A DNA stretch of 64,000 nt from Haliclona indistincta. Lineage: Eukaryota; Porifera; Demospongiae; Haplosclerida; Chalinidae. The position numbers were made by a program, and so were the translations under genes. The notes under the pieces were generated by a model. The model searched no databases. It was given only the letters and a program-made list of their open reading frames with translations, and was not told the DNA's origin. The DNA lies in contig OZ024790.1 of NCBI GenBank assembly GCA_964017065.1, positions 2,040,631 through 2,104,630 of the forward strand, given 5' to 3'. Below are positions 25,042 through 61,047 of the stretch, piece by piece; position 1 is the first letter of the stretch; each line of letters opens with the position of its first letter.

Positions 25042-27598
25042 ATGGCGACAAGAACAGAGAGCCCTGAAATTCGGACAGTGAGAGGCAAATTCGCTATTGT
25101 CTGTGGTTCTATCTCTGCACCAGACGTGGTGAACTTTGCTGGCGAATTGCTACAAAGTAATCTCATCAGCGATGCTGGTCACCAGGCGGCCATTGCTGCC
25201 GTCGGTCACCGGTTTATCACCGACTGCTCATCTGGTCTCAGAAGCCGCGAACAATGTCTGCAATTCACAAGACAACTTCTACAAGTTCGTCTCTATCGTA
25301 GAGAGCAGGAACGCACAACTTGCTTCCACCCTCAGGAGTCAATACATGCAGCATGTGGAACCAGCAAGTATATCTGATCATAAACAAGTCCCTGATCCCA
25401 CCTATGCTGAGTGTGCGAGAAGTCTACGACAGGTGTATAGAAAAGCTGAGCCTCCAACCTGGGACCCTCTCCCTCAATGCCAGCATGTCAAACTAGCCAT
25501 GATAAAGGAGAAAGGAAAGCGATGTGGCAGTGACAACACGATTGCTGAGAGCAGAGTAGAGGGAGATGTGGACAAACTGTTGACAATAAAGGTACCTGTA
25601 GATTCTGATCAAATCTTTGATGCTGACATCTTTGACGATGAGCGTCAGGTGATTCTAGTTGAAGGAGTGGGAGGAATGGGAAAAACAAGTCTTGCCTACC
25701 AATATGCCAAGAAATGGGCTGAAGGAAAGTTGAGCACATTTGATGCTGTGGCTCTTGTTCGTCTACGAGACTTGAACGAACACGATGTACGTGAAGTTGA
25801 TCATATCTTGCCTCACCTTCTCTTCCTAGCTAGTGGTAACACCATATCAAAAGAGATGGCTCAACTTATCGTAGACAAGCAAAAGATTCTCCTCATCTTG
25901 GACGGTTGGGATGAGTCTCCAGCAAGCATTCGTAAGCCGTCATTCATCATGGATCTACTTCGGTCGGTTTCTCCTCAGACTAGAATGCTGATAACCTCTC
26001 GACCTGACTTCTCATTGGATCTTCATGGTATAGCTAACCGGGTAGAGATTCTTGGTTTCACTAAAGGTGATATTCACAATTACTTTGAGAATGCGTTAAA
26101 GTCACACCTGCCTGATAGTAAAGTGAAGTCAGCTTGTGATAAGCTGAGAAGTCATTTCCATCGCTACCCAGTTATCGAAAGCTGTTGCTACGTGCCCCTT
26201 AATGCTGCCATTCTAGCATACATATACCTCAATCGTGACCAGACCTTACCCATCACTTGATGTGAGCTGTTTCAAGAACTTGTACTATGCTGCATAGTCC
26301 GTGAGCTGGAAACTCGCCAACCCGATAGAGTCCTTGAAGATGTCTCCTCATTTGAGGACCTCCCTGCTGATCTCAAGGAGCAGTTACACAAGCTCAGTGA
26401 ACTAGCATTCAATGGAGTGATGCAGAACAAGATTGTTTTTACACAGAAGGAACTCACATCACTCTCTACATTAGGTCTGCTTCATAGTGTCCAGGGGTTT
26501 GGCTCAATTGGTAGAAAATTAGTCACTTGCAACTTTATCCATCTAGTCGTCCAAGAGCTCCTTGCTGCCTACTATATCTCCCGACTAGAACCAGCTAAGC
26601 ACTCTAAACAATTTGAAACTCTCTTGAATGACAATCTCAAGTTTCCTGTACTCCAGTTTTACTGTGGTCTGACCAGGCTCACCAATGAGAGTGTACAAAA
26701 CCTCATCACTAGATTTAACTTTAATCGGCATGGAGAGAAAAGTAAACGTTGCCTCTTAGCATTTTTGAACTGCATCTTTGAGGCACAAATACGCGATCAA
26801 TTGTTTTTTGAACAAATGGTTCAAAATCTAAAATCTATAGTTGATTTGTCTTTTATTTCTTTGAGTCCAATGGATTGTCGGTCTATGCGCTACTTTTTAT
26901 CTTCTATCAGAACCTTAGCGAAGGGAAAAATATACTTGGATATTGCTGGCAGCGGTATTGATGACCAGTGTTTGGGTATGCTACTAGGAATATCTACTGA
27001 GCATGCTGAGACATCCTCTACATCAGGTGTTTTAGAGTCTTTAGAAACCCTACAAGTGCAGCACAATAAATATACAGACACTGGGATTGCTTACATTACC
27101 AGAGCTCTTGTCTCCAACAGCACTTTAAAAACACTGGGAGTTGGTAATGAGCATGTAACAGACATGGGACTAGTGCCACTGTTGGAAGCACTACCAAGAC
27201 TACATTCACTGAAGATGTTAGTATTGTACTGTACATTGTCACATTCTAACGAATCTTTGAAGATGATCGGAGAGTGTGTAGTGATGAGAAGTACAATGGA
27301 AAAATTAATATTAGACCTTTTTTCTCCATCATTGCAGTCAGAAGAGGCAGTAACAGAGTGGTTCCAGAGTATTGTGGTTGGAGGGAACAGTCTCATACAT
27401 TCTCTTAAATCTTGCCAAGTTACTGAGCTTAATTTAGTCATCAATCTTCAAAAAATTTCATGTAATATCGATACAAATGATGTAAAAGCACTATTACATT
27501 CATTGCTCCAAACATCAGTCACTTTTATTAACTCAGAAAGAAGAAAAAACTCAGTTTTTACAAATCCTTTACATATTAATTTTGACTGCTTTCAATAA
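25042..27598 (+). pseudogene. NLR pseudogene: CARD-like, NACHT, LRR
   Basis: The start MATRTESPEIRTVRGKFA matches the CARD-like N-terminus at 60285. Near 25195 a gain of about 7 bases and a loss of 9 (relative to 60440) shift the frame. The reading continues in another frame as EAANNVCNSQDNFYKF and runs straight into a NACHT module with Walker A GVGGMGKTS, Walker B KILLILDGWDE and sensor TSRPD. At 26258 a TGA replaces the CGA found in the paralogue (56603 region), a C-to-T change at CpG. The frame then reopens to a stop at 27598 through winged-helix-like and LRR segments (DTGIAYITRAL, VTDMGLVPLLEAL). Two lesions make it a pseudogene. Here the CARD-like and NACHT parts abut with no intron, unlike in the paralogues. 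Confidence 0.85.
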
Positions 27599-31072: not shown

Positions 31073-31804
31073 ATGATCTCTCTTGAGTTATGGCGTGCTA
31101 AGATAGGACTGTTCAACTGTTCTCGTCCACCCAGCAGTTCTCTCTTTAATAAACTCCATCATCAACAGCAGTCCGTGGCTCAGGGCTGGTTTCTAGCTGG
31201 TGGTGGTGGTCGTGCTGGGCTGTTCTCTTTGTGTCACTCTCTGATAAGGCGCGCTCTCTTTTTGCTGCTCGTGGCAGTCATTACTCACCTCCTACTGTCA
31301 GCTGGTGACGTGGAACAAAACCCAGGACCTGTATTTAGAGGTATCTAGTACTTGGCCTATTAATGATCGGTTCACCATTGACTTACATGTTATTAATGCA
31401 ATGATCATGTCTTCAGTTTCCGTGCTTTATTTCTGTAGATGCTCAGCCAACTCTTCGAGAGTTGCAGTACATGTCCTACACTAGTGAGGACGGAAGAACT
31501 GTTCCCTTCGAACTCATGTATCGGATTAAACCACGACTAACACATCTGGCCATAGCTTTGGACTTTCCTCAGTACATCATAGATGACCTGGAAACTAAAC
31601 GAGATCCTGTGCTATATCTATTAGGTGGGTGGTTGAGAGGAAGCAACCAGCAGTATGATCTGAGACCACTGACCTGGGGAACACTGATCACTGCACTACA
31701 ACATGCTCATCTAATAGAGGAGGTCAAGATACTGAAGGAACATTTTGTAGCTGAACCTTCACCACGTCTCCCACAAGTAACTGAACGACCTGTATCATTA
31801 ACAA
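31073..31804 (+). CDS. 2A leader plus death-like domain, NLR N-terminus
   Basis: Exon 1 (31073-31340) starts MISLELWRAKIGLFNCSRPP. It contains a hydrophobic run ALFLLLVAVITHLLL and ends with the 2A motif GDVEQNPGP (DxExNPGP consensus), then VFR. A gtatct donor is in phase 1. Exon 2 (31439-31804) follows a ttctgtag acceptor in matching phase. It encodes a helical domain LTHLAIALDFPQYIIDDLE..PLTWGTLITALQHAHLIEE, which fits the death-fold pattern ('W..L..aL...gl...a..l'). It ends at a gtatgt donor, again in phase 1. 2A sequences make ribosomes skip the Gly-Pro bond. In sea-urchin and sponge NLRs, 2A leaders double as signal peptides, so the protein can be secretory or cytosolic. The rest of the gene must lie downstream. 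An upstream in-frame ATG at 30959 is less likely. Confidence 0.8.
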
Positions 31805-32935
31805 GTATGTAATTTCATGATTTAGTTGCTTACCTGTTGCAGGGGTTACATTTCCCATGCTAAATGACAGGGTTGTTTAAAGGCGTGTTCACATGGACTA
31901 TGCAAGGATCGAATGCGTATTCAATCCGGTTCGTCGGCATTCACATGAATCCGCTTAAAATCAATGCGCATCGAATGCGCATTGCGTTTAATCCACCTCT
32001 GGTGGTAGATTGAAAGTGGATTGGAAGCGAATTGAGACTTCAGCGTATGGGTGCACACCGTCGCGAGTCATTGCCAGAAATGCCGGGACATGGACTTTAA
32101 TTTTTCCGTATACTGTTCCGTATACTAACCTTAGTTAATGTATTACGGGAATTGAGAGCGACCTGAAAACACATCGCCCAAGGCCAACTAACGTCTGGAA
32201 AGCTTACGCCAACTAACGTCTGGAAAGCTTGAGACTCGTGGCTAACCTGCTGTATGCATAGCTTAGCGCTCGCACATGCGCTCTTTTTCCCCCGACGATC
32301 GTTAGCGCTCTCATTCTCGTAATACATTAATTAGTACGTGAATTTCGAGCATTTTCAAAATTTCTTACACGTTTTACCGGTTTGTGACAAAATTTGCGCC
32401 TTAGTTCGATCCGGATTGTTGCTCACAGCTATAAACAGACTTGCCTGATGCTTGTTTTAGCTCTGGTATAGACGTGCGCATATTTTTCCCCCAGAGGCAA
32501 AATTTGGTGATTTTTGTGCTGATAATTAGAAATTTCAAAATTCGGTATTCACTGATACTAGCTTTATCGTAGCTATCCTGCTTCAGCGATTCAGCACAGT
32601 CCTTCTAGCCAACTTCTTGTGCTTTCTGGATGTGTAGATGACTGTTAACACATCCTGGTGTGCAAAATATGAGAAAAACTGCTCATGTCCAAAAAATGTA
32701 TTAAATTTCTGGCAATGAGACAAAAGGCTCTTGATAGACTAGTAAGTAAACCTTCGTAATGGCCATTTGAAGCATCGTTGAAGAGCGCAGTGTAGCTTTT
32801 TGAACCGCGCAATTTGCTACATGTGAATACTCGTGATGCGCATTGAATTTGCTTCCAATTCGCATTGCCGGTTTTGGGGATACAATGCTTGTATACAAGC
32901 AACAACCTCCCAACAACTTTATATAAAATTATAGG
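31805..32935. other. Intron or intergenic DNA rich in inverted repeats
   Basis: Bases 31873-32000 hold repeated atgcgcatt motifs, seen again inverted near 32825-32870, so a decayed TIR element may span 31873-32840. Inside it, 32130-32335 is a smaller element with ends ttaatgtattacgggaattg and cattctcgtaatacattaa and a duplicated 22-bp segment (ccaactaacgtctggaaagc). No gene is seen. Confidence 0.5.
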
Positions 32936-38746: not shown

Positions 38747-38933
38747 TACCATAGGGCGGTATTTTTCCGTGGTGTACAATTTTCGCGACAGCAATAATTC
38801 GCAAAATTTATTTTCGTTTTGACTCGAGGGAGAGGCCACACCCAGACCACACCCGTTAATTATTGAGCAGGCCGTATAGCATGCACTGCATGGGTGAAGC
38901 CACACGTGAACCAGCTGACGCCTAGCTAGGACC

Positions 38934-39920
38934 ATGGGAGAAGAAAGATTTGTAGTCGAAACAGTGGTGAGAGGATACCACGTATACAAAGATATATGGA
39001 AACCAAGACTTGGTGAATATCTGCAGTGTGAGATGGAGTTCGGGAATATTCACGATCCATATGCCGTGGCTGTAGTGCGTTGCGATGAAGCAGAAGTAGT
39101 TAGGCATGTACCACGCAAGATCTCTTCTCTGTGGTACTTTTTCTTCATTAAAAGGAAAGGTACCATCATTTGCCAGTGACAGGCAAACGACGCCGATCAG
39201 TAGACTTACCTCAAGGCAGTCTGGAAGTGCCATGCACTTTGACATTCAGTGGAAACAGCACAGAGATTAGAAAAGTGAAAACGCTCTTCGATAAAGCGCC
39301 AGCTGCAAATATTGAGCCGCCTGCCAAGAAAGCTAAAACTGATGAAAAAGCAGACGTTATTTCGAGCAGTGATTCTGAAGATGACGATGGCTTTGAAGAT
39401 GAGGTTTGGCTACAGTATCATGGCTGTTTGCTCACTGAGTGTGATAAAATAACGTGAATCAAATGATCTTCTCTCTGATTTGGATATCAACTATGCGCAA
39501 ATACTACTGCATCACCAGTTTCCTTCTGCTCAAGGACTGCGGAACACGCTTTTTCAAGACAAAGAACTACGAAAGATTGAGCGAGGAATACAGATAATCC
39601 ATGACAGGAAAAACCATTGGATCGTTGCTTCTACGATTGGTTCTGACAACACAGTATATGTCTATGATTCTATCTTTCGAGTTGTGGTAAATGCAACCAA
39701 GAAAGTGATTAGGAATGCTTTTATTGCCTCAGAAATTGAAATCGTGAAAACACAGAAACAGAGAGGTTCTAAAGATTGTGGATTATTTGCCATTGCTTAT
39801 GCAACTGCTCTGCTGAATGAAATCGATGTGTCCAATATTAAATTTCATCAAAGCAAAATGAGAGAGCACCTTTTATCATGCTTTGTTAATAAGAGTGTAA
39901 CTCCCTTTCCTCTGCTGTAA
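38934..39920 (+). pseudogene. HIRAN domain-Ulp1 (C48) peptidase fusion, frameshifted
   Basis: Segment 1 (38934-39177) reads MGEERFVVETVVRGYHVY, then LGEYLQCEMEFGNIHDPYAV, the HIRAN pattern with a conserved 'N..D..AVAV'. One missing base near 39174 moves the reading to segment 2, ending in the acidic linker SSSDSEDDDGFEDE. A second shift near 39455 leads to segment 3 (to 39920), a Ulp1/SENP-type cysteine protease C-terminus. Its putative triad is His in KNHWIVAST, Asp in VYVYDS and Cys in SKDCGLFAIAYAT. HIRAN domains bind DNA 3' ends, and Ulp1 peptidases cleave SUMO-like conjugates. Ulp1-like genes are known cargo of several eukaryotic DNA transposons. It is convergent with the transposase on the opposite strand. 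Confidence 0.65.
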
Positions 39921-42798: not shown

Positions 42799-42811
42799 CT
42801 CTCCCCCTCCT
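42799..42811 (-). other. Gypsy polypurine tract
   Basis: On the minus strand aggagggggagag directly precedes the 3' LTR, where plus-strand synthesis is primed. The integrase ORF stops at its edge (42810). Confidence 0.85.
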
Positions 42812-44711
42812 AGCTCTGTCCATAACGGTTAACTGGTTTGCGATTCCTAGTTCCCCGTCTCAGTCCTTTATTGGGGTCATTAACTGGAGATTTAGTAGTG
42901 GGCATATCTGATGCATGAACAGCAGTAGGAGATGATGATTGTGAAGATGAAACAGAAGCTGTTGGTGTCATTACTGGGGATGTGGTGGTAGCATCTGTTG
43001 TTCTCGATTTCTGTAATTGTGAAGATGATTGTGGAGATGAAACAGAAGCTGTTGGTGTCATTGCTGGGGATGTGGTGGTAGCATCTGTTGTTCTCGATTT
43101 CTGTACATCTGCAGGGACCTTGTACCAATTAGGTACATTCTTCCCATTGTATCGCCAGAGCCTATTTCGATGTACCACCTTTGGTTTAGTATGTGGTCCC
43201 AGGCGAATGCGATACACTAAATCATTGATTTTCTTGGTAATCACATATGGTCCCTGCCATGAATGTCCCAGCTTTGGCGACAACCCTTTCTTCCGCTGAG
43301 GGTTGTACAGCCAGACAGCCATACTCTCTCGCAAGGTGGCACCATCAGGATATTGATTGTCATAATACAACTTCATTCGATCACTCTTGATCTCTATGTG
43401 TTGTCTGGCATACCTGTGTATTTCCTCTAAACTCTCCTGTAAATTCTGAACATACCCCGAGGTATATGAGAGTGATGGCGCTTCCTCTTGAGGCCTTCCA
43501 AATGCTAGATCAATAGGCAGTCGAATTTCCCGCCCAAATAACAGTCTAGCTGGCGTATACCCGGTAGTATCATGAACCGCCGATCGGTAAGCCATCATCA
43601 TGAGAGGTACTAGTGTGTCCCAGTTGCGATGATTCTTATCGACAAACATGGACAGTTGGGCTTCAAGTGTTCGATTAAATCGTTCCACCATCCCATCCGA
43701 TTCAGGATGCAAAGGTGTGGTTCGTGTCTTTTCTGCTCCTAAGAGTAAACACATCTCAGCGATGAGCGATGACTCAAAATTGCGTCCCTGATCGGAATGG
43801 ATGGTAACCGGCACACCAAACCGACTTACCACTTCTTTCACCAGGATTTCTGCCACAGTGCTAGCTTCCTGGTTGGGCATAGGATGTACCTCTGGCCATT
43901 TAGAGAAATAGTCCATTATCACCAGTAAATATTTGTTCCCAGCTTCTGTTATGGGAAGTGGACCCAACACATCCACAGCTATACGTTCCATTGGTGCTCC
44001 AGCATGATGTTGTGCCATTCGAGCACGGAACCTCCTCGGAGGACCTTTACGAGATGCACACAATTCGCAGGAGCGACACCAGTCTTCTACATCTCTTCTG
44101 CACTTAGCCCAATAAAACCTTTCTCTCACCTTGTCTAATGTTTTGGCTATACCAAAATGCCCTCCAGCTGGTGTATTGTGCAACGAATGAAGAACACAAG
44201 TTCTCAACTGCTTAGGGAGAAACAATTGAAGTGTTCTGTATTCTCCTGATGGTGCTTCCCACTCTCGGTAGAGCAAGCCATCCTTTACTCGAAGGCTATC
44301 CCACTGTGCCCAATATAACTTAGTCTCCTCACTATATTGTGACACCTTCTCTCTACCTGGACGAGTTTCACTTTCTTTTCGCCACTGTATAATTGGACCG
44401 ATCTCATCATCCTCCTCTTGAGCTTGTAATATGTCTATATTGGACAATTGAATGGAGGAGTCTATAACTTGCTCAAGTCTTGTGGCTCCAACATAACCAC
44501 TAGTCTCAGCGCATTTCTGCAATTTAACTGTTGCAACCGATGGAGATGGACATTCCAACAATTCACGTTTGCAGACACTGGTCTCCTGAGCCTCTAATCG
44601 GTCACAATGTTTACAAACATTCAGGCATGGTCTGGATAGAGTATCAGCATTATTGTGTAATTTACCTGCTCGATGTTGAACACGAAAGTCGTACTGCTGC
44701 AGTCGTTCCAA
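42810..44711 (-). pseudogene. Gypsy pol, RNase H tail and integrase
   Basis: The 633-codon minus frame opens with ERLQQYDFRVQHRAGKLHNN and ADTLSR, the C-terminal end of the retroelement RNase H, detached from the rest by the MITE. The integrase H2C2 finger follows (GHFGIAKT..CRSCELC). The DD35E core has Asp in RIAVDVLGPLP, Asp in IHSDQGRNFE and Glu in PESDGMVERFNRT. After the core come a GPY/F-like region (SWQGPYVITKKIND) and a serine/threonine-rich tail with a duplicated segment of about 29 residues (TTDATTTSP.MTPTASVSS). The coding part is otherwise undamaged, but it is separated from its upstream half, so I mark it broken. Confidence 0.9.
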
Positions 44712-44736
44712 CCATCTAGCAATCTGTCCCTCTGGG

Positions 44737-45034
44737 CAGTGTTCTCGCTAGGCTTTTTTCTGGTGGTGCTGCACCACTTGGTTGTTACATTGCACCACTT
44801 GGTTGCCACTTGGTTGTTACATTGCACCACTTGGTTTTCACAATTTTTCTGCAATCCCAATGAGATTTTGGTAATTTTGTCTGATTAAGAGCAATAATGG
44901 TTGATTTATACCAACTGTTTTCACCTCCAAACCACAGCACATGTAGATTTTAATGATATTCACATTGAGTGAATTGACACTATGCAATTATGTGGTTTGC
45001 ACCACTTGGTCTTCAAATCCTAGCGAGAACACTG
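44737..45034. mobile_element. 298-bp hAT MITE inserted in gypsy pol
   Basis: cctctggg occurs at 44729-44736 and 45035-45042 as an 8-bp target duplication. Ends are cagtgttctcgctagg and cctagcgagaacactg. The interior has iterated gcaccacttggtt. The cagtg end and 8-bp duplication indicate hAT. It interrupts the RNase H coding region and must be younger than the gypsy insertion. Confidence 0.95.
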
Positions 45035-47741
45035 CCTCTGGGAATCTGAAGGAAAACAACCACTGTAGTGCAGCATGATCGGTTCGCAAAGTGAAACTAC
45101 GGCCGTACAAATATGGATGGAAGTGTTTGACAGCTTTTACCACAGCTAATAACTCTCTTCTAGTGGTACAGTACTGACGTTCTGGTCTACTCAACACCTG
45201 ACTGTAATATGCAATCACTCGCTCCTCTCCCATCTGCACCTGGGACAACACTGCACCAACCCCATATCCGCTAGCATCTGTGTCGAGTACAAAATGGTCT
45301 TCTTGTGTTGGGTAACACAGGAGGGGAGCACTAATAAGTGCTTGTTTGAGTTGCTGGAACGCATTCTCAGCTTCCAGAGACCAAGTGAACACGCGAGTCC
45401 CACCTTCAGTACATTGGTATAGTGGACGGGCTATATCAGTAAATCGGTCAATAAAACGACGATAGTAAGAACACAATCCCAGGAAACGTCGCACATCATT
45501 GACACTACCAGGGACGGGCCATTCCTGCACAGCCTTGACCTTATCTGGGTCCATGGTGAGACCTGAGCTGCTAACAATATGCCCAAGAAACTTCACTTCT
45601 CTCCGGAACAGAGAGCACTTTTTAGGAGAAAGTTTCAAACCTGCCTTCATCAATCGATCGAATACTGCTTCAAGGCTCTTAACGGCTGCATCAAAATCGG
45701 TACCAGGAACCAAAATGTCATCCAAGTACAAGAGACATACAGACAACGGTAATCCTGCCAAAACCTGCTCCATCAATCTCTCAAATGTGGCAGGGGCATT
45801 ACATAGCCCAAAGGGCATTACCTTAAATTGCCACAGGCCTCGTTGAGTGGAAAAGGCAGTTTTCTCTTTCGACTCCTCATCCAGTTCTATCTGCCAGTAT
45901 CCACTGACTAGATCTAACGTAGAGAACCATTCGGCACCAGCCAATGCTTCAAGAGTGTCGTCAATTCTGGGAAGTGGGTAAGAGTCTTTACGAGTCACTG
46001 AATTCAACTTGCGATAATCAACACAAAATCTTGTTCCACCTCCTTTCTTCTTCACTAGCACCACTGGAGAAGCCCATGGACTAGAAGATGGTTCAATGAC
46101 TCCCTGATCTAACATGGCAGTAACTGATTGTTGTGCTTCCTCTCTTACAGAGAATGGCAGACGACGTGGTTGTTGTCTAACAGGAATTGCTCCCTGAGTA
46201 TCAATGTGATGTTTAACCAGGTCAGTTCTGCCCAGATCGTTTAGTCCTGAAGAGAATACACTAGCATACCTGCAAAGCAGATCGTGTAACTGGGTAGTTT
46301 GCGGGGGAGTCAGTCCTTCCGAACTCTTTTCAAACAAAGATGTTAAATGCTCTGGGAGTTGGTCTCCACTTGCATCACCAATTTTTGATATGAGTACACT
46401 CTCCACTGGTTCACAAGCAGCCACAACTGTACCTCTTCGTAAATGACGAGCCTGGTCTGATAAATTCATTAATCTTACTGTCGCAATCGGTTCATCCAGG
46501 GTAACCAATGCTCTACCAACCAACAAATCTTGAATTGCTGAGGCAGGATTAGATTCCAAAGGACCAACAATTGCCCACTTCACCTCTCCTTGCTTTAGTC
46601 CCTCTACTTTCGCAGGCACAACACTCTCAGAACGTGGAGGAAGAGTTACCCTGCTTTCTAAGATAGCTCGGTATGTCTGCAGTCTTTCCCCTGGCTTCTT
46701 ACTACTATGCTTAAGCAAAGGCACCTCTTCCTCTCCGATAATCAACACTTGTTCTCGAAGATTCACCTGACAATCGTTGACTCTCAAATAATCCAAACCT
46801 AATATACAACAGTCCTGAATATCAGCGACCCAAAATTCCTGAGGCAGCATGCGTGACCCAATGCTCACTTGCAATAATACCTTCCCTATTATTGGAGCTT
46901 GTTCTCCGGTCACAGTTCTGATAGCACTCCCAGGTATAGGCTGGACTTGATTACTACTGGCTTTAGGCAACACATCTGGACGCACAATGGATATATTGCT
47001 CCCAGTATCGACGGTCATATCAACACATACCCCATCCAAAGTTCCAGCCACAAGGAGACTATCACTATTTGAGAAAATGGACCCGGTTTTGAACACGTCA
47101 ATAGCTTCTGACAACGGGACCGTGGGTGTTTTTGATGACATTACAGTAGAACAAGAGTGATTCATGGGGGATGATACAACGCTGTAAAGATGATGAGTGG
47201 ATGATTTTTTTTTGGAATGAGGGTGGGTAGATGTAGATGCACTGTAAGTGGAGGGTGAGGGTGAATAAGCAGCAGATGATGAAAATGATGACTGAATGCC
47301 GGAAAGTTCAACGGGATGAGATATGTTGTGAACTGGTGATACAATAACAGAACAACCATGATCTAATGACTTCTGAGGAGTGGTGACATGAGTTGCTGAT
47401 GTAGGCTTGGTGACAGAATGAACAGATGGTCTAAAGACAGGGGCGGAGTGATTAAGTGGAACTGATTTGGGTGATTGAACTATGACAGGATGAGAATTGG
47501 TAACAGATGATGATTTAGATGATGAATGACTATGATTGGTGTGTGCAGGTGCAAGATGAGTTTGAGCATGCAAAGGGGAAGGGGGGCAATCCATGGGAGC
47601 TAAACAATCAGAATCACATTCATTTTTATTTTTATTCTTATTTTTTGAAGGGGCTGCAAAATTCCCAGCCGAGTTCTGCCCCGCGAACTCGGCTAAGAGT
47701 CGTTTCCCGAGTGGAAAGTGCCCTTTTGCAATGTTGGGCAT
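44988..47741 (-). pseudogene. Gypsy pol, protease-reverse transcriptase-RNase H
   Basis: The 917-codon minus frame overlaps the end of gag by 49 bases in the -1 frame. A long serine/histidine-rich linker is followed by an aspartic protease with VDTGSNISIV. The reverse transcriptase follows with FCVDYRKLNSVT, PFGLCNAPATFERLM and the catalytic box YLDD (LLYLDDILV). The RNase H begins DTDASGYGVGAVLS and includes TDHAALQWLF. About 18 codons after that it runs into the MITE and stops early (QVVQTT). The reading is otherwise open, so the element was coding-competent until the MITE arrived. Confidence 0.93.
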
Positions 47742-48976
47742 TCTCGCTGTCTATGTCCCTTTTGATTGCACTCCCAGCAAACAATGTCTGATCTAACATT
47801 ACCACGCCTTGGTGATCTAGATCTTTTACGTGTTTCAACCGTGAGAGTCTGAACGGCAGTTACTAACTCTTGCAGCAGACCAGACATATTCTGATCAGCA
47901 AATGATACCTGCTTAGCAGGCTTCCCAACAGGCTGTAATTGTACTTCTCGCACATTGCGCACCTTGTGTCTGCTAGCCATCTGGAATGATTCCAGTTCTA
48001 ACGCTGTTTGTAGCGCATCACGGAGTGTCGAAGGTTTGCTTTGCAATATTCGCAATCTCATATCCTCGTCACACAATGAATCAACAAATTGATCTTTACC
48101 TAGTACTTGTACCATTGACTCACTTGCTTCAGGATAGGCAAGGCGAACAAGGCGTTCTACATCTTCCGCCAAACCTGCAAGTGGCTCTTCTTTGTTACGG
48201 CTTCTCATCCTCAACCGGGTTCGAAAGAGGTCAATCTGGTTCTTTGTACCGAATCTAGACTCCAGAGCCGATTTAAGAGCTGCATAATCTTGTCTCTTGG
48301 CCACCGGCAAATTGGTCAACACAGTGGCTGCATCTTCCCGCAGGTTAACAGCAAGGTGGGCCGCTTTCTCTTTGTCACTCCATCCATTCAGTTGAGCCAG
48401 CAACTCGAACTGTGTGTGATACACGTCCCAAGGTATCTTGCCATCGAACGGGGATGGGCGTTGCCGAAGACGGCCAGCGTCGTGAGTCGGCGGCTCCGTC
48501 ACGACTGGTGGAGGGCGTGATGGCTCGTGGCACTCGAGGGACACACCGGCGCCAGCGCGCGACAGATGCTCTGAGTCAGCCGTGGCCAGGGACGACAGCT
48601 CTCGCAGCAGCTCTTCCTTGAGTTCGTGTTTTAGCGAGTCTTGCTGTTCTTCCCAGCGGCACTCAAACCGCACTGCGTCTTTCACCACCTTGGCCTCCAG
48701 AGACTCCAGCCGCCTGTTCACCGTAGTCTTGACAGACTCGAGGTTAGACTGAACCGTGTTCATGAAGTTAACGGCCTCCTGCTGACGACGGGACAGCTCT
48801 TCTATGTTTCCCATTTGCTTTTCTAGCAGACTTTTTAAGCCGGTAGCTCTCTCCTGTTCTTCCTCAGCACGCCGTTCAACTTGTTGTTGAAGGGCATCCT
48901 GCTGCTGCTGGACTAGCTCTGTTAGTTTCTTCAACTGTTCTTCCATTCTGACCGTCGCAGCTCTCGTAACGGGCAT
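47693..48976 (-). CDS. Gypsy gag
   Basis: Start at 48976 (MPVTRAATVRMEEQL), 25 bases inside the LTR edge. The open frame extends further upstream into the LTR, but this ATG is the first after the primer-binding site. An N-terminal coiled coil (LQQQVERRAEEEQERATG) precedes the retrotransposon gag domain (WDVYHTQFELLAQLNGW..LRMRSRNKEEPL), and a basic tract ends in a CCHC zinc knuckle, CWECNQKGHRQREC. It forms the particle and packages RNA. The stop is at 47693, just after the slippery heptamer used to enter pol. Confidence 0.93.
   Translation of the reverse strand: MPVTRAATVRMEEQLKKLTELVQQQQDALQQQVERRAEEEQERATGLKSLLEKQMGNIEELSRRQQEAVNFMNTVQSNLESVKTTVNRRLESLEAKVVKDAVRFECRWEEQQDSLKHELKEELLRELSSLATADSEHLSRAGAGVSLECHEPSRPPPVVTEPPTHDAGRLRQRPSPFDGKIPWDVYHTQFELLAQLNGWSDKEKAAHLAVNLREDAATVLTNLPVAKRQDYAALKSALESRFGTKNQIDLFRTRLRMRSRNKEEPLAGLAEDVERLVRLAYPEASESMVQVLGKDQFVDSLCDEDMRLRILQSKPSTLRDALQTALELESFQMASRHKVRNVREVQLQPVGKPAKQVSFADQNMSGLLQELVTAVQTLTVETRKRSRSPRRGNVRSDIVCWECNQKGHRQRECPTLQKGTFHSGNDS
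47702..47708 (-). promoter_or_regulatory. Probable -1 ribosomal frameshift site for gag-pol
   Basis: On the minus strand the heptamer G GGA AAC sits in gag frame (codons TCG GGA AAC), three codons before the gag stop, within the gag-pol overlap. It fits X XXY YYZ, and a -1 slip leads into the pol frame. A downstream structure was not computed. Confidence 0.8.
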
Positions 48977-48981
48977 AAAGT

Positions 48982-48999
48982 ATCCCACTCCTGACACCA
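48982..48999 (-). other. Gypsy primer-binding site, tRNA-Leu type
   Basis: On the minus strand tggtgtcaggagtgggat follows the 5' LTR after one base. It is complementary to a tRNA 3' end of the form atcccactcctgacacca, which resembles eukaryotic tRNA-Leu. Confidence 0.8.
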
Positions 49000-49000
49000 A

Positions 49001-49144
49001 TGTAACGAAATATTTCTTTTCGAAAATATACACAGAGAGAGAGCAACCAGTGCCAGCACGAGGTCATATATATCATATCATAACATACAATAGTTATCAT
49101 AGTTAATAGTTAATGGTTTATTAACAGTTCAGTCTGACGTTACA
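49001..49144 (-). repeat. Gypsy 5' LTR
   Basis: 144 bp, identical by eye to the 3' LTR at 42655-42798. It lies upstream of gag on the minus strand and should hold the element's promoter. Confidence 0.97.
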
Positions 49145-52163: not shown

Positions 52164-55100
52164 GTCACCCTGCCACTGTGGAGCCAGTAAATGTGGATGT
52201 GCAGCCTGATCTTGTGGAAAATCTCAGTTTTCTTCATGAAGAGTATGCTTACTTGTTAATGGTGCTACAAAAGTCTAAAATCTCCAAAGAGAGCTTAGAT
52301 GATCTGAAACTATTTTTGTCACGACTCTGTAAGTGTGTCTCAATTAAGAGCTGTCCTTCTCTTAATTGTGTTATTGACTTACTTGAAGTTGAGAAAAAAA
52401 TATTTATTTTCAACGTTGAACCTCTGATTGCCTGTTGCAGTATTAGACCCAATCACTTGTACAAGTCATTCTTTGAAAGCAAAGTCTGCAGTGCTGTACT
52501 GGAGTATAAAAAGCTACTCAAGGAATTTCTATCTAGCAAAAGTCTTAATAACTTTCATTTTTCTTTACGAAAAAGCTTAAAAGATATCAAGGATATGGCT
52601 GAGGTCACCTTGAAATTGAAGGACACTGATGAAACTGATGCAGGCACTGTAAACTGTGATACTGCTGACATATTAGAGAAACTTCCTTATCAACTTTTTG
52701 GAGTCACTAGCAAAGCTATGTTACTTTGTGAAGTTCGTACTGGTTGTGTGTGTGTCACATGGTGTTTTCCCGTATCACTGATACCTACGTTGAAAGAGAA
52801 GGCTGAATGCCTTTCACCAGAGTATCTGGCTAACATAGGTGTTTTGGAACTAGTGATTGGTCTACGAATTGTTCCTAATGAAGGTATAAGTGTTGTATGA
52901 TCATAGTTATCCTTAATTTTGTGTTGGTTATTTTAGGCGCTCTCAGTGGTGATAATACATCCTCTGTATCTCAAGTGATCAACCCTGCAAGTGGTTTTGC
53001 TGAAAAATCTGGTTAGAATAATGCATGCGTTTTTGTTTGTGTGTGTTTGCACATTGACGGAGCAATTTTTGCCCATAATATTATATCTGTATGTAATTAT
53101 ACCTTGATCTCTATTGTTGTGTACTCTTCTTCGAATTTTAAGCTCGTAATTTAAGTGTGTTTAATTTCCTAATTAGGTGATACTCAACAACCAGTGGGTG
53201 TGGCTAGTAGTGACGTGATGATTGCAGCAATGGTGAAGAGAAATGAGATTGAAATGCAAGAAAGATTATATTATGAAGAGAAGTGTTCTGAGCTTGAAAA
53301 GAAGCTAGAGGAAGCTGAAAAACAAAAGGCTGAGTTGGTTATATGCTCTACTAACAAGAGGGAGGAGTTAGAGCATGAACTTGAAGCGGTACGAAAAGAG
53401 AGATTGGAATATGAAGAAAAGTGTAATAAGCTCGAGAAAGAAGTGAAACAATTGGGACAAAAGAATTTTCACTTTGAAGAAAAATCCAAATCACTAAAAA
53501 AAGAGCTAGAAGATCGGATTGAAGTAGTACGAGAGTACGAGGAAAAATTAAAGGAGCTAAAGACTTTTGGGTTGTATGGACATAAAGGTATAGCTATGTT
53601 GTCTCTACTACATGAAACACTGCACATGCATGGTGATTAGCTTAGCCAAGGGCAATGCAATGACTTTGAGCTTTCACAAATACTGACTTAAAAATTCGAT
53701 TTTTCATGTATGAATTTCTAGTTTTTATGCTGGGCGTATGTAATTAAAAACACTCTCTGAATAACATTGAAAGAAATCTACATAGTGAGTTTCAGCTTGC
53801 TCTGATGAACAATTATGGACTAGGTTGAAGTTATGTTGGTGATGGTACAAAACCTGGACTGTGGTCTCATGGACTGGACCGTGGACTGGACCATGGACCG
53901 AAATATGGACTGAAATGTGGACCGAAAATGCTACGGCTGACGGTAAAACCCGGAATTTCGTTAAAATAATATAATATTACCCGTAACTACTAAACCCTAA
54001 ACCCAAGACCCTAAAAACCTTGGCCTAACAGCGCCCAGTATTCGCCTAACAGCGCCCAGTATTGGCCTAACAGCGCCCAGTATTCGCCTAACAGCGCCGT
54101 TAGGCAAATACTGGGCGCTGTTAGGCCAAGGTTTTTAGGGTCTTGGGGTTTAGGGTTTAGTAGTTACGGGTAATATTATATTATTTTAACGAAATTCCGG
54201 GTTTTACCGTCAGCCATAGCATTTTCGGTACACATTTCAGTCCATATTTCGGTCCATGGTCTAGTCCACGGTCCAGTCCATGAGTCCACAGTCCAGGTTT
54301 TGTACCATCCCGTTATAGAGTCAGGTTTGATTTAGTGATGTATTGGATGATTCTCATTAGGGGTGCAGAGTCATGCCCACGCATGTATTTTTGGCTGGTT
54401 GCTAGGGGACTGTATCTCAGAAGCTATACTGCTGATATTCCAAGAAACCAAATACCTCTGCTATAAGACTGGCGTAGGCTGTACACAATGCAAACTATGA
54501 GCGCTGAAATTGCCAGACGGAAACATGACGGGCGCGGCTAGATACAATGCTTAGGCTAATAAAACTTTCGTTCGCTCAGGCAGTAGAACTTCAGATTGTG
54601 CATATATACGTACTTCAACAAGGCGAAGACAGTAACATTGAGCTTTTTCATCTATTGTGCTCAAAAGTGCGATTTTGAGCTGCTTACCTCATGGTTTCCT
54701 ACTCAGAGGTAGTTTATTAACAAAAACTTTCTGTTATTGTCTTTATCTGGTCGCTAATAGTCATCATGTAAATATATCCTGGTGTGCATGGGTCTATTCT
54801 GAAGGCCACAGACAGAGTTTTATAGAGGAATGTATATTGTTCGTGATCTTGCCTGGCTACTGTCAATCATTATTATGCTTAACATGCTTGTACAAACAGT
54901 GAATATCGTTTGTGGTGTTGTAACAATGTCCAACTTGTACATTCCTGAATAAGTTAATGGTTTTTAGGGCCTGCACCCTTAAGTGGTCATGCAGCTATGA
55001 TAACACTGTACCATCCTAATCGTATATTTATGAGCAACCTTGACAGACGCAATGCAAAACTCGCTCTGATCGAGTGTGTCTTTATGTATAATGCAGGATG

Positions 55101-57954
55101 TAGCGCTGTACCATATTCTACAACAAGATAAATCGACATCATTCGTCGTGTAAACAATGGGCGTTTTTAAAGCCAAGCCCCTCTCCAGGCAGAAAACAGT
55201 AATAGCTAAAATTCAACTCTTATGAAGTATCTCTAGGTCCTGACGAAGAGTTTTTCTAACTGACAGAAATTGCTGCTATTTTGTGTATAATAATTATACT
55301 CTCAAAAAATTATGTTGGGATAGAAAATGAACATAACGTTTGTGTTTTCTTAAAATCGAAAGCTTTTAAACCAAAATTAATCTTCAATTGTACTTATAGA
55401 TAGTTTATAAGAGTTAAAATTAATTTTAGGTATTCCTTTCTGTTGAGATTTTCGGCTGAAAATGTGTATTGTTTACAGTTACATGTGCACCATCATGATA
55501 TTTTTGTAGATAACTATATCGTGGTAGTTTTAAATTGCCCAGTCCTATCTTAACTAACAATGCACATTATTTTGTATCAGCATGATTTTAGCTACTTAAA
55601 TTTACATGCTTTTAAATTTTATTGTCAACTTTGACATACTATCATCATCATCAGGTGAAAAATTGCAAAGTGTTCTCATCAGTGATGAATTACGATCAGA
55701 ACCTAAACGATTGAAAGAACAAGAACCAGAGAACCAACAAGACCAGTCCTGTGCTGAGTTTGTGAGCAGTCTTCGACATGTGTATAGAACAGCTGAGCCT
55801 CCAACCTGGGACCCTCTCCCTCAGTGCCAGCATGTCAAACTAGCCATGATAAAGGAGAAAGGAAAGCGATATGGCAGTGATAACACGATTGCTGAGAGCA
55901 GAGTAGAGGGAGATGTGGACAAACTGTTGACAATAAAGGTACCTGTGGATTCTGATCGAATCTTTGATGCTGGCATCTTTGACGATGAGCGTCAGGTGAT
56001 TCTAATTGAAGGAGTGGGAGGAATGGGAAAAACAAGTCTTGCCTACCATTATGCCAAGAAATGGGCTAAAGGAAAGTTGAGCACATTTGATGCTGTGGCT
56101 CTTGTTCGTCTACGAGACTTGAATGAACACGATGTACGTGAAGTTGATCGTATCTTGCCTCACCTTCTCTTCCTAGCTAGTGGTAACAGCATATCAAAAG
56201 AGATGGCTCGACTTATTGTAGACAAGCAAAAGATTCTCCTCATCTTGGACGGCTGGGACGAGTCTCCAGCAAGCATTCATAAGCCATCATTCATCAAAGA
56301 TCTGCTTCGGTCAGTTTCCCCTCAGACTAGAATACTGATAACCTCTCGACCTGACTTCTCATTGGATCTTCATGGTCTAGCTAACCGGGTAGAGATTCTT
56401 GGTTTCACTAAAGGTGATATTCACAATTACTTTGAGAATGTCTTAAAATCTCACCTGCCCAATAGTGAAGTGAAGTCAGCTTGTGATAAGCTGAGCAGTC
56501 ATTTCCATCGCTACCCAGTTATCGAAAGCTGTTGCTACGTGCCTCTCAATGCTGCCATTCTAGCATACATATACCTCTATCGTGACCAGACCTTACCCAT
56601 CACTCGATTTGAACTGTTTCAAGAACTCGTACTATGCTGCATTGTCCGTGAGCTGAAAACTCGCCAACCAGATAGTGTCCTTGAAGATGTTGAAGATGTC
56701 TCCTCATTTGAGGACCTCCCTGATGATCTCAAGGAGCAGTTACACAAGCTCAGTGAACTAGCATTCAATGCAGTGATGCAGAACAAGATTGTTTTTACAA
56801 AGAAGGAACTCACATCACTCTCTACATTAGGTCTGCTTCATAGCGTCCAGGGGTTTGGTTCAATTGGTAGAAAATTAGTCACTTGCAACTTTATCCATCT
56901 AGCCATCCAAGAGCTCCTTGCTGCCTACTATATCTCCCGACTAGAACCAGCTGAGCATTCTAAACAATTTGAAACACTTTTGAATGACAATCTCAAGTTT
57001 CCTGTACTCCAATTTTACTCTGGTCTGACCAGGCTCACCAATGAGAGTGTACGAAACCTCATCACTAGATTTAACTTTGATCAGTATATAGGGGATTTTA
57101 AGCGTTGTCTTTTAGCATTTCTGAACTGCATCTTTGAAGCACAAATACACGATCAATCGTTTTATGAACAATTGCTTCATTCTCTAAAATCTAGTGTTGA
57201 TTTGTCTTCTATTTCTTTGAGTCCAATGGATTGTCTGTCAGTGCACTACTTTTTATCCTCTGTCAGAACCTTAGCGAAGGGAAAAATAGACTTGAATATT
57301 TCTGGCTGCAGAATTGATGACCAGTGTTTGTGTATGTTACTAGGAATATCTACTGAGCATGCTGAGACATCCTCTACATCAGGTGTTTTAGAGTCTGTAG
57401 AAACACTGCAAGGTATGTTCAATGAATACACAGACACTGGGATTGCTTACATTGCCAGAGCTCTTATCTCCAGTAACACTTTAAAAACACTGTGGGTTGG
57501 TCATTACAGAGTAACAGACATGGGACTGGCGCCACTGTTGGAAGCACTAACAAGATTACGTTCACTGAAGGAGTTATTATTGCACTGGACATTGTTACAT
57601 CCAGATGAAACATTAAGGAGGATCGGAGAGCTGTGTGTAGAGAGGAGTAAAATGGAAAATTTATCATTATTCCTTTATTCTCCATCATTACAGTCAGAAG
57701 AGGCAATAACAGAGTGGGTCCAGAGTATTGTGGTAGGAGGGAACAGTCTCATACATTCTCTTAAGTCTTGTCAAGTTACTGAGCTTACTATAGTCGTAGT
57801 TCTTCGAAAAATTTCGTTTCCTATCGATACAAAGGGTGTTAAAGCACAATTACATTCATCTCTACAACAATCAGTCACTTTTACTAACTCAGAAAGAAGA
57901 AACTCAGTCTTTACGAATCCTTTACATTTTAATTTTGAAGTTATTTGTTTATAA
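52164..57954 (+). CDS. NLR: helical module, coiled coil, NACHT, LRR
   Basis: Inferred exons are 52164-52883, 52937-53011, 53177-53587 and 55655-57954, all joined in phase 1 with GT..AG borders. Exon 1 encodes a helical module ending GCVCVTWCFPVSLIPTLKEK and GVLELVIGLRIVPNEG. Exon 3 is a coiled coil (KCSELEKKLEEAEKQKAELV). Exon 4 holds the NACHT ATPase with Walker A GVGGMGKTS (bases from 56011), Walker B KILLILDGWDE and TSRPD. Helical domains then lead into NLR-type leucine-rich repeats (YTDTGIAYIARAL, VTDMGLAPLLEAL). The order is that of a cytosolic NLR that oligomerises after ligand sensing. The start codon is not identified because exon 1 begins at an acceptor (ttttttag), so more N-terminal exons lie upstream. 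The last exon is intact where the paralogue at 25042 is broken. Confidence 0.8.
53841..54309. mobile_element. 470-bp foldback element in an NLR intron
   Basis: Arms of about 215 bp begin gatggtacaaaacctggact and end with the complement. The outer arms contain degenerate repeats of tggaccg/tggactg. The inner arms contain aaaccctaaaccc. The centre has four short repeats of cctaacagcgcccagtatt. It lies wholly within the intron between the coiled-coil and NACHT exons. Non-coding. Confidence 0.9.
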
Positions 57955-59384: not shown

Positions 59385-60284
59385 TGGTTACTAGAGTCCA
59401 GCAGTCTTTTGTACTTGCTGTGTGCGTTTATTGGGCAATCTTTAAGCTGTCAACATAGCAAAACGTGGTAAGTTACTTGCTTTCTTACGTTTTCCATGCA
59501 CGACAAGTCAACTTATCGTTGCATCGATCGTAGCCAAGTACTCAGGACTATAGATGCTGTGCTGCCCATGCCAGACTACCAAAGCTAGCACCTGTACAAA
59601 AGAAACTCATGACAGAGGAAAACATGACCGTGAGTTCCAGCGGAAAAATATGAGTTCCAGCGGAAAAATACGAGTTCCCGCGGAAGAATACGTAATTTAT
59701 TTTCCTCCAACTGACAAATCAGATTCTAGAATTACATTGAACTGTAGTATAAACTATGGTAGTAGCAAACAACACTGGATAATTAATGTCTTGATCGAAC
59801 AATACAATCAAACATTGCAGCAAGCAAGACTATCTCTGGTAGCCAACTGCTTGGTAAATCTCTTTCTTGACTGAGATCATGGCAAAAAATGTTCGTTTCC
59901 AAACTCTACGGCTTGCAAAATGATGTGCCATCACTTTTAAGTAGAACTGAAGTAGCTAGCCTAATATTATCGTACTGAGGCTTTTTTAGAGGCTAGAGGT
60001 AAACCCTCGTGATATATAGTTACTGTAGCACTGGAAAGAGACTCAAAACTGACAAACCATAGAAGGACAAACACAATCTATGCCATAAAGTAGTAGCGAA
60101 TGATCAGCTGACGTCATTGCTTGCATACAGGCTACAGCGAATTTCACTTCCGTTGAAAATACCGCGTGCCCCGTATTTTGTATTTACCATACTTCACTAT
60201 ACACGGAACCACGGGATACGCAACACGCAGTTTTCAATGGAAGGGAAAGGCAACCTCAAGTTGTTTCCTTATTCCGAGAAGGCT
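59385..60284. other. Upstream region of the CARD-like gene, with a 20-bp repeat
   Basis: A 20-bp unit tgagttccagcggaaaaata occurs three times at 59631-59690. A 106-codon ORF (59554-59874) crosses it but has no recognisable domain. The remainder, up to the start at 60285, holds the presumed promoter; no clear TATA box is seen. Confidence 0.45.
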
Positions 60285-61047
60285 ATGGCGACAAGAACAG
60301 AGAGCCCTGAATTTCAGACAGTGAGAGGCAAATTCGCATTTATCTGTGATTCTATCTCAGCACCAGACGTGGTGAAATTTACTGGCGAACTGCTACAAAG
60401 TAATCTCATCAACGATGCTGGTCACCAGGCGGCCATTGCTGTCACCGGTTTATCACCGACTGACAAGATTGCTCATCTGGTCTCAGAAGCCGCGAAAAAT
60501 TTCTGCAATTCACCAGACAACTTCTACAAGTTCGTCTCTATCGTAGAGAGCAGGAACGCACAACTTGCTTCCACCCTGAGGAGTCAATACATACATGCGA
60601 GGGCTGGTCCCTCAGATTCAGGCGACTCTCCTGAGTACTTGACGGTTCTAAGGCACATTGCTGATATCAACCAACGCATCCCGCCAGCTGAACGATGTAC
60701 AGTCGCTGATAATCTGCTACAAGCCGGTCTAATTACTGCAGCCAGCCATACTAATGCCACTGCCATAGGCACAGGGATACCACATAATCAGTTGATTAGC
60801 TCACTCATGGCTGAAGCTATGGCTAGGATCAAAACGTGTTCCAGACTATTTTATAGTTTGATCACCATTTTGAGGACGATAGACGATACATTCGCCACTG
60901 AACTGACCACAGAATGCTGTGAGTACCCAAAATTTAATTAAGTTATAACTTTGTGTGATATGATTGTTTGGTCTGTAGCGATGTCAGGAGGAAGGAGTGC
61001 AGTAGAAATCGCTGCCAGAAAACGACAAGGCACACATCTTTCTCAAG
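60285..61047 (+). CDS. Double CARD-like N-terminus of an NLR, partial
   Basis: Exon 1 (60285-60918) starts MATRTESPEFQTVRGKFA. An in-frame upstream ATG at 60237 is possible, but MATRTES is the part shared with the pseudogene at 25042. It contains two tandem helical units of the same pattern. The first includes VVKFTGELLQSNLI and DNFYKFVSIVESRNAQLAS. The second includes ERCTVADNLLQAGLI and LFYSLITILRTIDDTFATEL. 'LL...LI..(S/P)....Ll..v....p..F..fv.il' fits the CARD/death-fold class. A gtgagt donor in phase 1 leads to a 69-nt exon (60979-61047, MSGGRSAVEIAARKRQ) with a gtatgc donor, again in phase 1. No NACHT exon is seen before 64000, so the gene runs off the window or is broken. Adaptor recruitment is the expected role. 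Confidence 0.7.

Follow-up and report, generated by a model that had tools for sequence, protein, structure and literature searches.

A repeated sponge leader exon ending in a 2A motif precedes a predicted death-fold exon and may send its product to two locations

The window analysed here is a 64,000-nucleotide stretch of the genome of the sponge Haliclona indistincta (G000:C8:2040631-2104630; 144 Mb in 46 contigs). It contains a two-exon cassette on the forward strand, in which a leader exon with a 2A (StopGo) motif at its end is followed by a short predicted intron and by an exon with a predicted death-domain fold. The cassette comprises the following features:

31073..31340, + strand: exon 1, leader; 86 codons reach the Pro of NPGP and are followed by Val-Phe-Arg and a single base, giving a phase-1 end
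31073..31117, + strand: conserved N-terminal motif MISLELWRAKIGLFN; ratio of non-synonymous to synonymous substitution (dN/dS) 0.13 over residues 1-18; predicted helix 4-14
31253..31303, + strand: hydrophobic core ALFLLLVAVITHLLLSA; Kyte-Doolittle mean 2.53; 8 residues short of the Pro; predicted helix 50-77
31304..31330, + strand: 2A/StopGo motif GDVEQNPG/P; predicted skip between the Gly codon (31325-31327) and the Pro codon (31328-31330)
31341..31438, + strand: predicted phase-1 intron, GT...AG, 98 nt; donor GAG/GTATCT at 31341, acceptor AG ending at 31438
31439..31804, + strand: exon 2, phase 1-1, with a death-domain fold by prediction
31805..31810, + strand: candidate 5' splice site GTATGT after exon 2, phase 1; inspection by eye shows similar sites in 9 of the 12 other distinct loci

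Exon 1 translates as MISLELWRAKIGLFNCSRPPSSSLFNKLHHQQQSVAQGWFLAGGGGRAGLFSLCHSLIRRALFLLLVAVITHLLLSAGDVEQNPGP followed by VFR, and the leader terminates in ALFLLLVAVITHLLLSAGDVEQNPG/P. Its start codon is the ATG at 31073; an in-frame ATG 22 codons further 5' is missing in seven paralogue leaders (L002-L008). The motif carries the D(V/I)ExNPGP octamer of 2A/StopGo peptides, a pattern with one occurrence in the window where shuffles predict 0.01, and the hexamer upstream of it, LLLSAG, was judged by eye to be compatible with the LLLLSG-like class. Nine near full-length paralogues of exon 1 share 79-91% identity with it, and one has a stop. An Rfam scan of the window gave no matches.

The original prediction described a leader with GDVEQNPGP, joined in phase 1 to a death-fold-like exon, with the 2A exactly at the border between leader and domain. 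We confirmed this arrangement: joined by the predicted splice, exons 1 and 2 form a single 211-residue frame, and the 2A lies at the border in the sequence layout. A frame break between the exons, which the prediction had named as a reason to abandon it, was looked for and the frame was found to be continuous across the predicted splice. A phase-1 GT no more than 22 nt from the Pro codon, together with a phase-1 AG that rejoins the frames, was present in all 18 loci of a set that includes the window copy and a near-identical pair, with a script that looked for such sites over a short range. The introns measure 45-98 nt; the donor is ambiguous between two sites at some loci and weak at a few (GTCAGC, GTTAGG). 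The unspliced frames of leader and exon 2 are offset by 0, 1 or 2 across the loci and several introns hold in-frame stops, so removal of the predicted intron is the simple reading of how the two exons are joined. In the near-identical pair L051/L052 and the database proteins P0002, P0003 and P0004, the short intron is read through in frame. Exon 2 itself adopts, in the predicted fold, the helical bundle of the death-domain superfamily, and five of six paralogue exons match Pfam Death (PF00531) at E-values up to 10 (best 4.9e-4).

The motif is repeated across the genome. The pattern D[V/I/M]ExNPGP occurs at 189 sites and its reversed control at none; our site-based counts use 187 of them, and leaders were read at part of these 187. 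In 19 of the 43 copies of exon 2, a 2A starts 78-131 bp upstream on the same strand. Downstream, a 2A lies within 500 bp of none of the copies, within 3 kb of five and within 5 kb of eight. NACHT domains show the same polarity: among the 102 that were scored out of 631 candidates, 22 have a same-strand 2A within 5 kb upstream, one has it downstream and none on the opposite strand (randomised sites: mean 0.415, maximum 3, 200 draws). Within the cluster at C7:1.60-1.72 Mb, a NACHT follows each of the eight 2A sites. One locus, L115, can be modelled in five exons, with ends picked by eye (166-679, 735-1073, 1187-1261, 1310-1381 and 1436-2871). Its frame runs continuously over 811 codons with every intron in phase 1, through a 2A leader, a death-like domain, two linkers and a NACHT domain. 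A window-type cassette at C7:4509012, whose leader has an early stop, is followed about 2.8 kb past the death exon by a NACHT exon whose acceptor, by eye, is in phase 1. By their NACHT exons, these 2A-linked paralogues are putative members of the NLR genes, which combine NACHT with leucine-rich repeats.

Downstream of the 2A, Pfam Death was matched above the cut-off in L004, L006, L030 and L020 and below it in L016 and L019. Pfam searches with 20 downstream-exon proteins, one of them from the window, gave 6 Death matches at E ≤0.01 and no match for the other 14; several of the latter appear death- or CARD-like by eye only. Furthermore, the database protein P0010 combines a window-type leader with Pfam Death. 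In the predicted gene structures, 2A leaders are joined to several death-domain types beyond that of the window.

To follow selection on the leader, we used eight window-type leaders found by leader similarity. Over the whole leader dN/dS was 0.29; it was 0.13 in residues 1-18 and 0.025 in the last 12, against 0.58 in the middle and 0.43 in the hydrophobic part. The 2A of these leaders is thus under strong purifying selection and the N-terminal motif, MIS-ELWRA-IG, is constrained too, while the middle drifts. In the last 12 codons of L001-L008, synonymous divergence reaches 0.51, exceeding the 0.17-0.20 of the remaining parts by a factor of 2.6-3. A broader set of 44 leaders was reduced to 40 by removal of four duplicate loci and to 34 by exclusion of those that did not fit the ungapped start. 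Among these 34, chosen by motif and N-terminal start and biased accordingly, the proportions of non-synonymous and synonymous differences were 0.157/0.589 at the N-terminus, 0.441/0.548 in the hydrophobic part and 0.097/0.714 in the 2A core. Counts of the leader N-terminus are likewise biased by a pattern that requires that start, and two picks, L067 and L090, do not belong. The 17-residue stretch of highest hydrophobicity stops 4-10 residues short of the Pro in 38 of the 40 leaders.

A profile search retrieved 200 database proteins; among the 120 listed, D[VI]ExNPGP was kept in 119 and WRAx[IL]G in 118, and 31 form a group with KHG after NPGP. For one protein of this group, the best-scoring match in our genome was 46% and none exceeded 49% across its length; the leader has thus probably been retained by at least one further organism. 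A scan of viral contigs for the leader yielded 30 pattern matches, none of them a relative by tblastn; recent viral capture is unsupported in that collection. An amphipathic-helix reading of the N-terminal motif was dropped, as its helical amphipathic moment is low (0.09-0.21).

Taken together, the window appears to hold the 2A-ended leader exon and predicted death-fold exon of a repeated family, and we consider it likely that one mRNA of such a gene gives a cytosolic receptor and a smaller membrane-directed share. The hydrophobic core would be both the tunnel-contacting upstream half of the 2A and the sole membrane-targeting segment, the latter role being judged by hydropathy. Since the core ends about 8 residues before the Pro, it should still lie inside the exit tunnel when skipping is decided. 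Upon successful skipping, the downstream death-NACHT protein would begin with Pro and remain cytosolic, and the leader would be freed with the layout of a tail anchor. Upon failure, the core would emerge as a signal anchor and take the whole receptor to the membrane of the endoplasmic reticulum. The two fates would be exclusive, because the decision on skipping falls while the segment is still in the ribosome, and the efficiency of skipping would set the cytosolic/membrane ratio. Upstream hydrophobic residues of F2A sit in the exit tunnel according to the cryo-electron microscopy and mutagenesis described in passages of PMC12846837. The position of the core, these tunnel contacts and the fit to the hexamer class are why a single segment could serve as StopGo arrest peptide and membrane anchor.

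Downstream of the cassette, two exons of the window have a putative link to it:

52164..52883, + strand: candidate exon lying 5' of the 55655 NLR and judged by eye to be phase 1-1
55655..57954, + strand: NACHT exon with a phase-1 acceptor by eye, the nearest same-strand NLR downstream

Several observations weigh against the dual-fate interpretation, in the family as well as in the window copy. No exact 2A lies within 200 bp upstream of 24 of the 43 exon-2 copies, fragments among them, and eight copies have a 2A within 5 kb downstream; 80 of the 102 scored NACHT domains have no 2A within 5 kb upstream. Just 22 of the 187 2A sites have a scored NACHT within 5 kb downstream, most being untied to one, and part of the sites sit in transposon-like frames. 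A core starting 60 residues in would be unusual for a cleavable signal peptide, and the hydrophobic leader of the original prediction is not a classical N-terminal signal peptide, the core beginning at residue 61. The death-like nature claimed for exon 2 stands on the predicted fold and the five paralogue matches, but not on the window copy: this had no Pfam Death match, no Foldseek match to its fold reached an E-value of 0.001, and sequence searches of Pfam and the PDB using just this exon gave nothing useful. The term receptor similarly suits the paralogues, with NACHT downstream, but not yet the window copy, for which the closest NACHT exon found on its strand begins about 24 kb downstream. 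Joining the cassette to 52164 or 55655 would require an intron of 20-24 kb carrying transposon-like frames. A third exon was sought through paralogue similarity, and past exon 2 this gave only repeat-like matches and a general NACHT similarity (55600-57951/L040). The window copy may be an orphan that arose when a leader-death cassette of the C7 family was duplicated into the NLR cluster of C8, and it may lack a NACHT partner or be decaying, with the family working as described. In keeping with this, its 2A is the sole one listed in that cluster (C8:2.03-2.60 Mb; the two sites outside the 187 lie beyond C8 in list order), similarity to the compared paralogue loci stops at 31726-31807, near the end of exon 2, and gives way to repeat-like sequence, and L116, a neighbouring NLR of the cluster, seems by eye to possess a death-like exon of its own, with no 2A listed for it. 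On the other hand, the window frame, its 2A and both splice sites are intact, the database protein P0001 keeps the same exon and its flanks (77% identity over 61% of the query), and the phase-1 acceptors at 52164 and 55655 are compatible. We give the orphan explanation somewhat less than an even chance.

Other explanations concern the leader itself. That the motif is an inert relic or a mere membrane anchor, with no skipping, we hold to be the least probable of all: the exact octamer is under strong constraint and kept in nearly every listed database leader, and the hexamer upstream is StopGo-compatible. Hardly more probable is a derivation of leader and 2A from a non-long-terminal-repeat (non-LTR) retrotransposon instead of a host gene. 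Some of the 189 sites do lie in transposon-like frames; L103 continues into what we take by eye to be an endonuclease-like start, and L100 and L106 presumably into a PHD-like stretch. However, in most of the MIS-ELWRA leaders that were read a splice donor comes just past the 2A, leaders of this type have same-strand death and NACHT exons downstream of them, and the viral contigs yielded no confirmed relative. An ancient origin of the leader from a mobile element is possible. A different emphasis would have skipping near-complete and the freed leader as the actual purpose: each receptor would be accompanied one-to-one by a tail-anchored mini-protein composed of the conserved N-terminal motif, a Ser-rich spacer, and a C-terminal hydrophobic helix with about 9 further residues. 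The motif is constrained and the middle is not; it is common to leaders with poorly aligning middles (picked partly for that start) and to the 118 database leaders above. A signal sequence has no need of such a motif, and the tail layout fits a tail anchor. Against this, the motif could work in translation or in the mRNA and not as a peptide, and the AlphaFold model of the leader is of low confidence (mean predicted local distance difference test score 64). We regard the mini-protein as possible and rather doubtful. The original prediction of one mRNA with dual targeting is partly supported; dual targeting does not explain this motif.

A combination of these ideas can be put forward tentatively. 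Each receptor gene would be a natural bicistron whose 2A frees a conserved mini-protein, tail-anchored and running from MIS-ELWRA-IG to the hydrophobic tail, at a constant ratio to the death-NACHT receptor. The unskipped share would reach the membrane via the same segment, and the state of the ribosome, for example stress on elongation, would set the balance of sensor forms; the leader exon would have been shuffled onto several death-domain types and kept in another organism. The conservation of the leader N-terminus suggests a second product, one that would escape annotation.

Several further loci were noted. At C4 (G000:C4:10637345-10652476, partly L041), a tandem array of short open frames carries 17 exact 2A motifs within 15 kb, spaced about 0.25-2.9 kb apart; many of the frames read SGDIETNPGPIAS, and this could be a repeat or an exon array. 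In L107 (2A at position 481, minus strand), a MIDIAEWRARIG leader continues without a stop into a cysteine-containing frame with no Pfam match, which takes the place of the death domain. Two window-type death exons without a 2A just upstream (C7:1343770-1344087 and C7:1396110-1396427) each stand about 1.8 kb before a 2A leader that precedes a Pfam Death exon. Within the window, 25133-27598 (with a frame break), 55600-57954 and 60063-60941 (tandem CARD-like domains by eye, no Pfam match) are members of the tandem C8 cluster, whose close paralogues mostly share 88-95% identity in the NACHT part. The interval from the 2A cassette to the next NLR holds a frame pair at 38919-39920 (+), HIRAN-like and Ulp1-type protease (Pfam Peptidase_C48 above the cut-off, HIRAN weak), and frames at 42810-49063 (-) that look by eye like a Gypsy-type element.

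Among known systems, the 2A of non-LTR retrotransposons combines an N-terminal hydrophobic stretch with a 2A. The leader resembles it in this respect, and transposon-like examples occur in this genome too. However, those read here showed no death or NACHT exon, unlike the leader family, and the window leader is joined not to an endonuclease or reverse transcriptase but has a death exon downstream across a predicted intron. Retrotransposon 2A sequences are named in the available passages of PMC4981915.

The 2A-led genes share their Death and NACHT architecture with the NLRD receptors of sponges, and passages of PMC12909245 report transmembrane domains in sponge NLRs. 2A leaders could explain these annotated segments, which can be tested; the terms '2A-like' and 'signal peptide' are absent from those passages. 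In passages of PMC5009743, sponges are tied only to mitochondrial frameshifting. The original prediction also took 2A leaders to be known already from sponge NLRs, for which we found no source: 'sponge', Amphimedon and Porifera are absent from the available text of PMC4981915, and a search by title and start of abstract, with subscription papers (the first sponge NLR survey included) outside it, returned nothing on 2A in sponge NLRs.

With viral 2A/StopGo peptides of the LLLLSG-like class, the leader has in common the D(V/I)ExNPGP octamer and a leucine-rich hexamer ending in AG before Asp. In passages of PMC12846837, that class ends in (A/S/C)G before Asp, with one motif of the class active. 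Viral 2A lies inside a polyprotein, whereas here it is N-terminal in predicted spliced host genes. The same 2026 study describes natural StopGo use as largely viral and very rare in cellular genes (passages of PMC12846837), in contrast to the 189 exact motifs in one animal genome and the at least 22 of 102 scored NACHT domains with a 2A nearby.

The closest known system is SpNLR2A of sea urchins, and the precedent for dual targeting cited by the original prediction is real. As given in the available passages of Roulston et al. 2016 (PMC4981915), 85 of 241 sea-urchin NLRs have 2A-like sequences, an N-terminal form of 26 residues occurs in 14 of 87 NCBI entries, and SpNLR2A6 is reported to partition its product between two fates. 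The two systems are alike in a 2A at the start of NLR-type proteins, a hydrophobic stretch joined to it, many members and an inferred dual targeting; here a 2A near the N-terminus of a NACHT protein is supported for the paralogues by position and a gene model, the window copy being unlinked. They differ in that the leaders here have about 66-169 residues (86 in the window) instead of 26, with a core far from the very N-terminus and a conserved MIS-ELWRA-IG motif of their own, and in that the leader is a separate exon with a phase-1 border, followed by several death-domain types, in another animal. If active, such recoding would be a routine control of receptor location in this sponge rather than a sea-urchin oddity.
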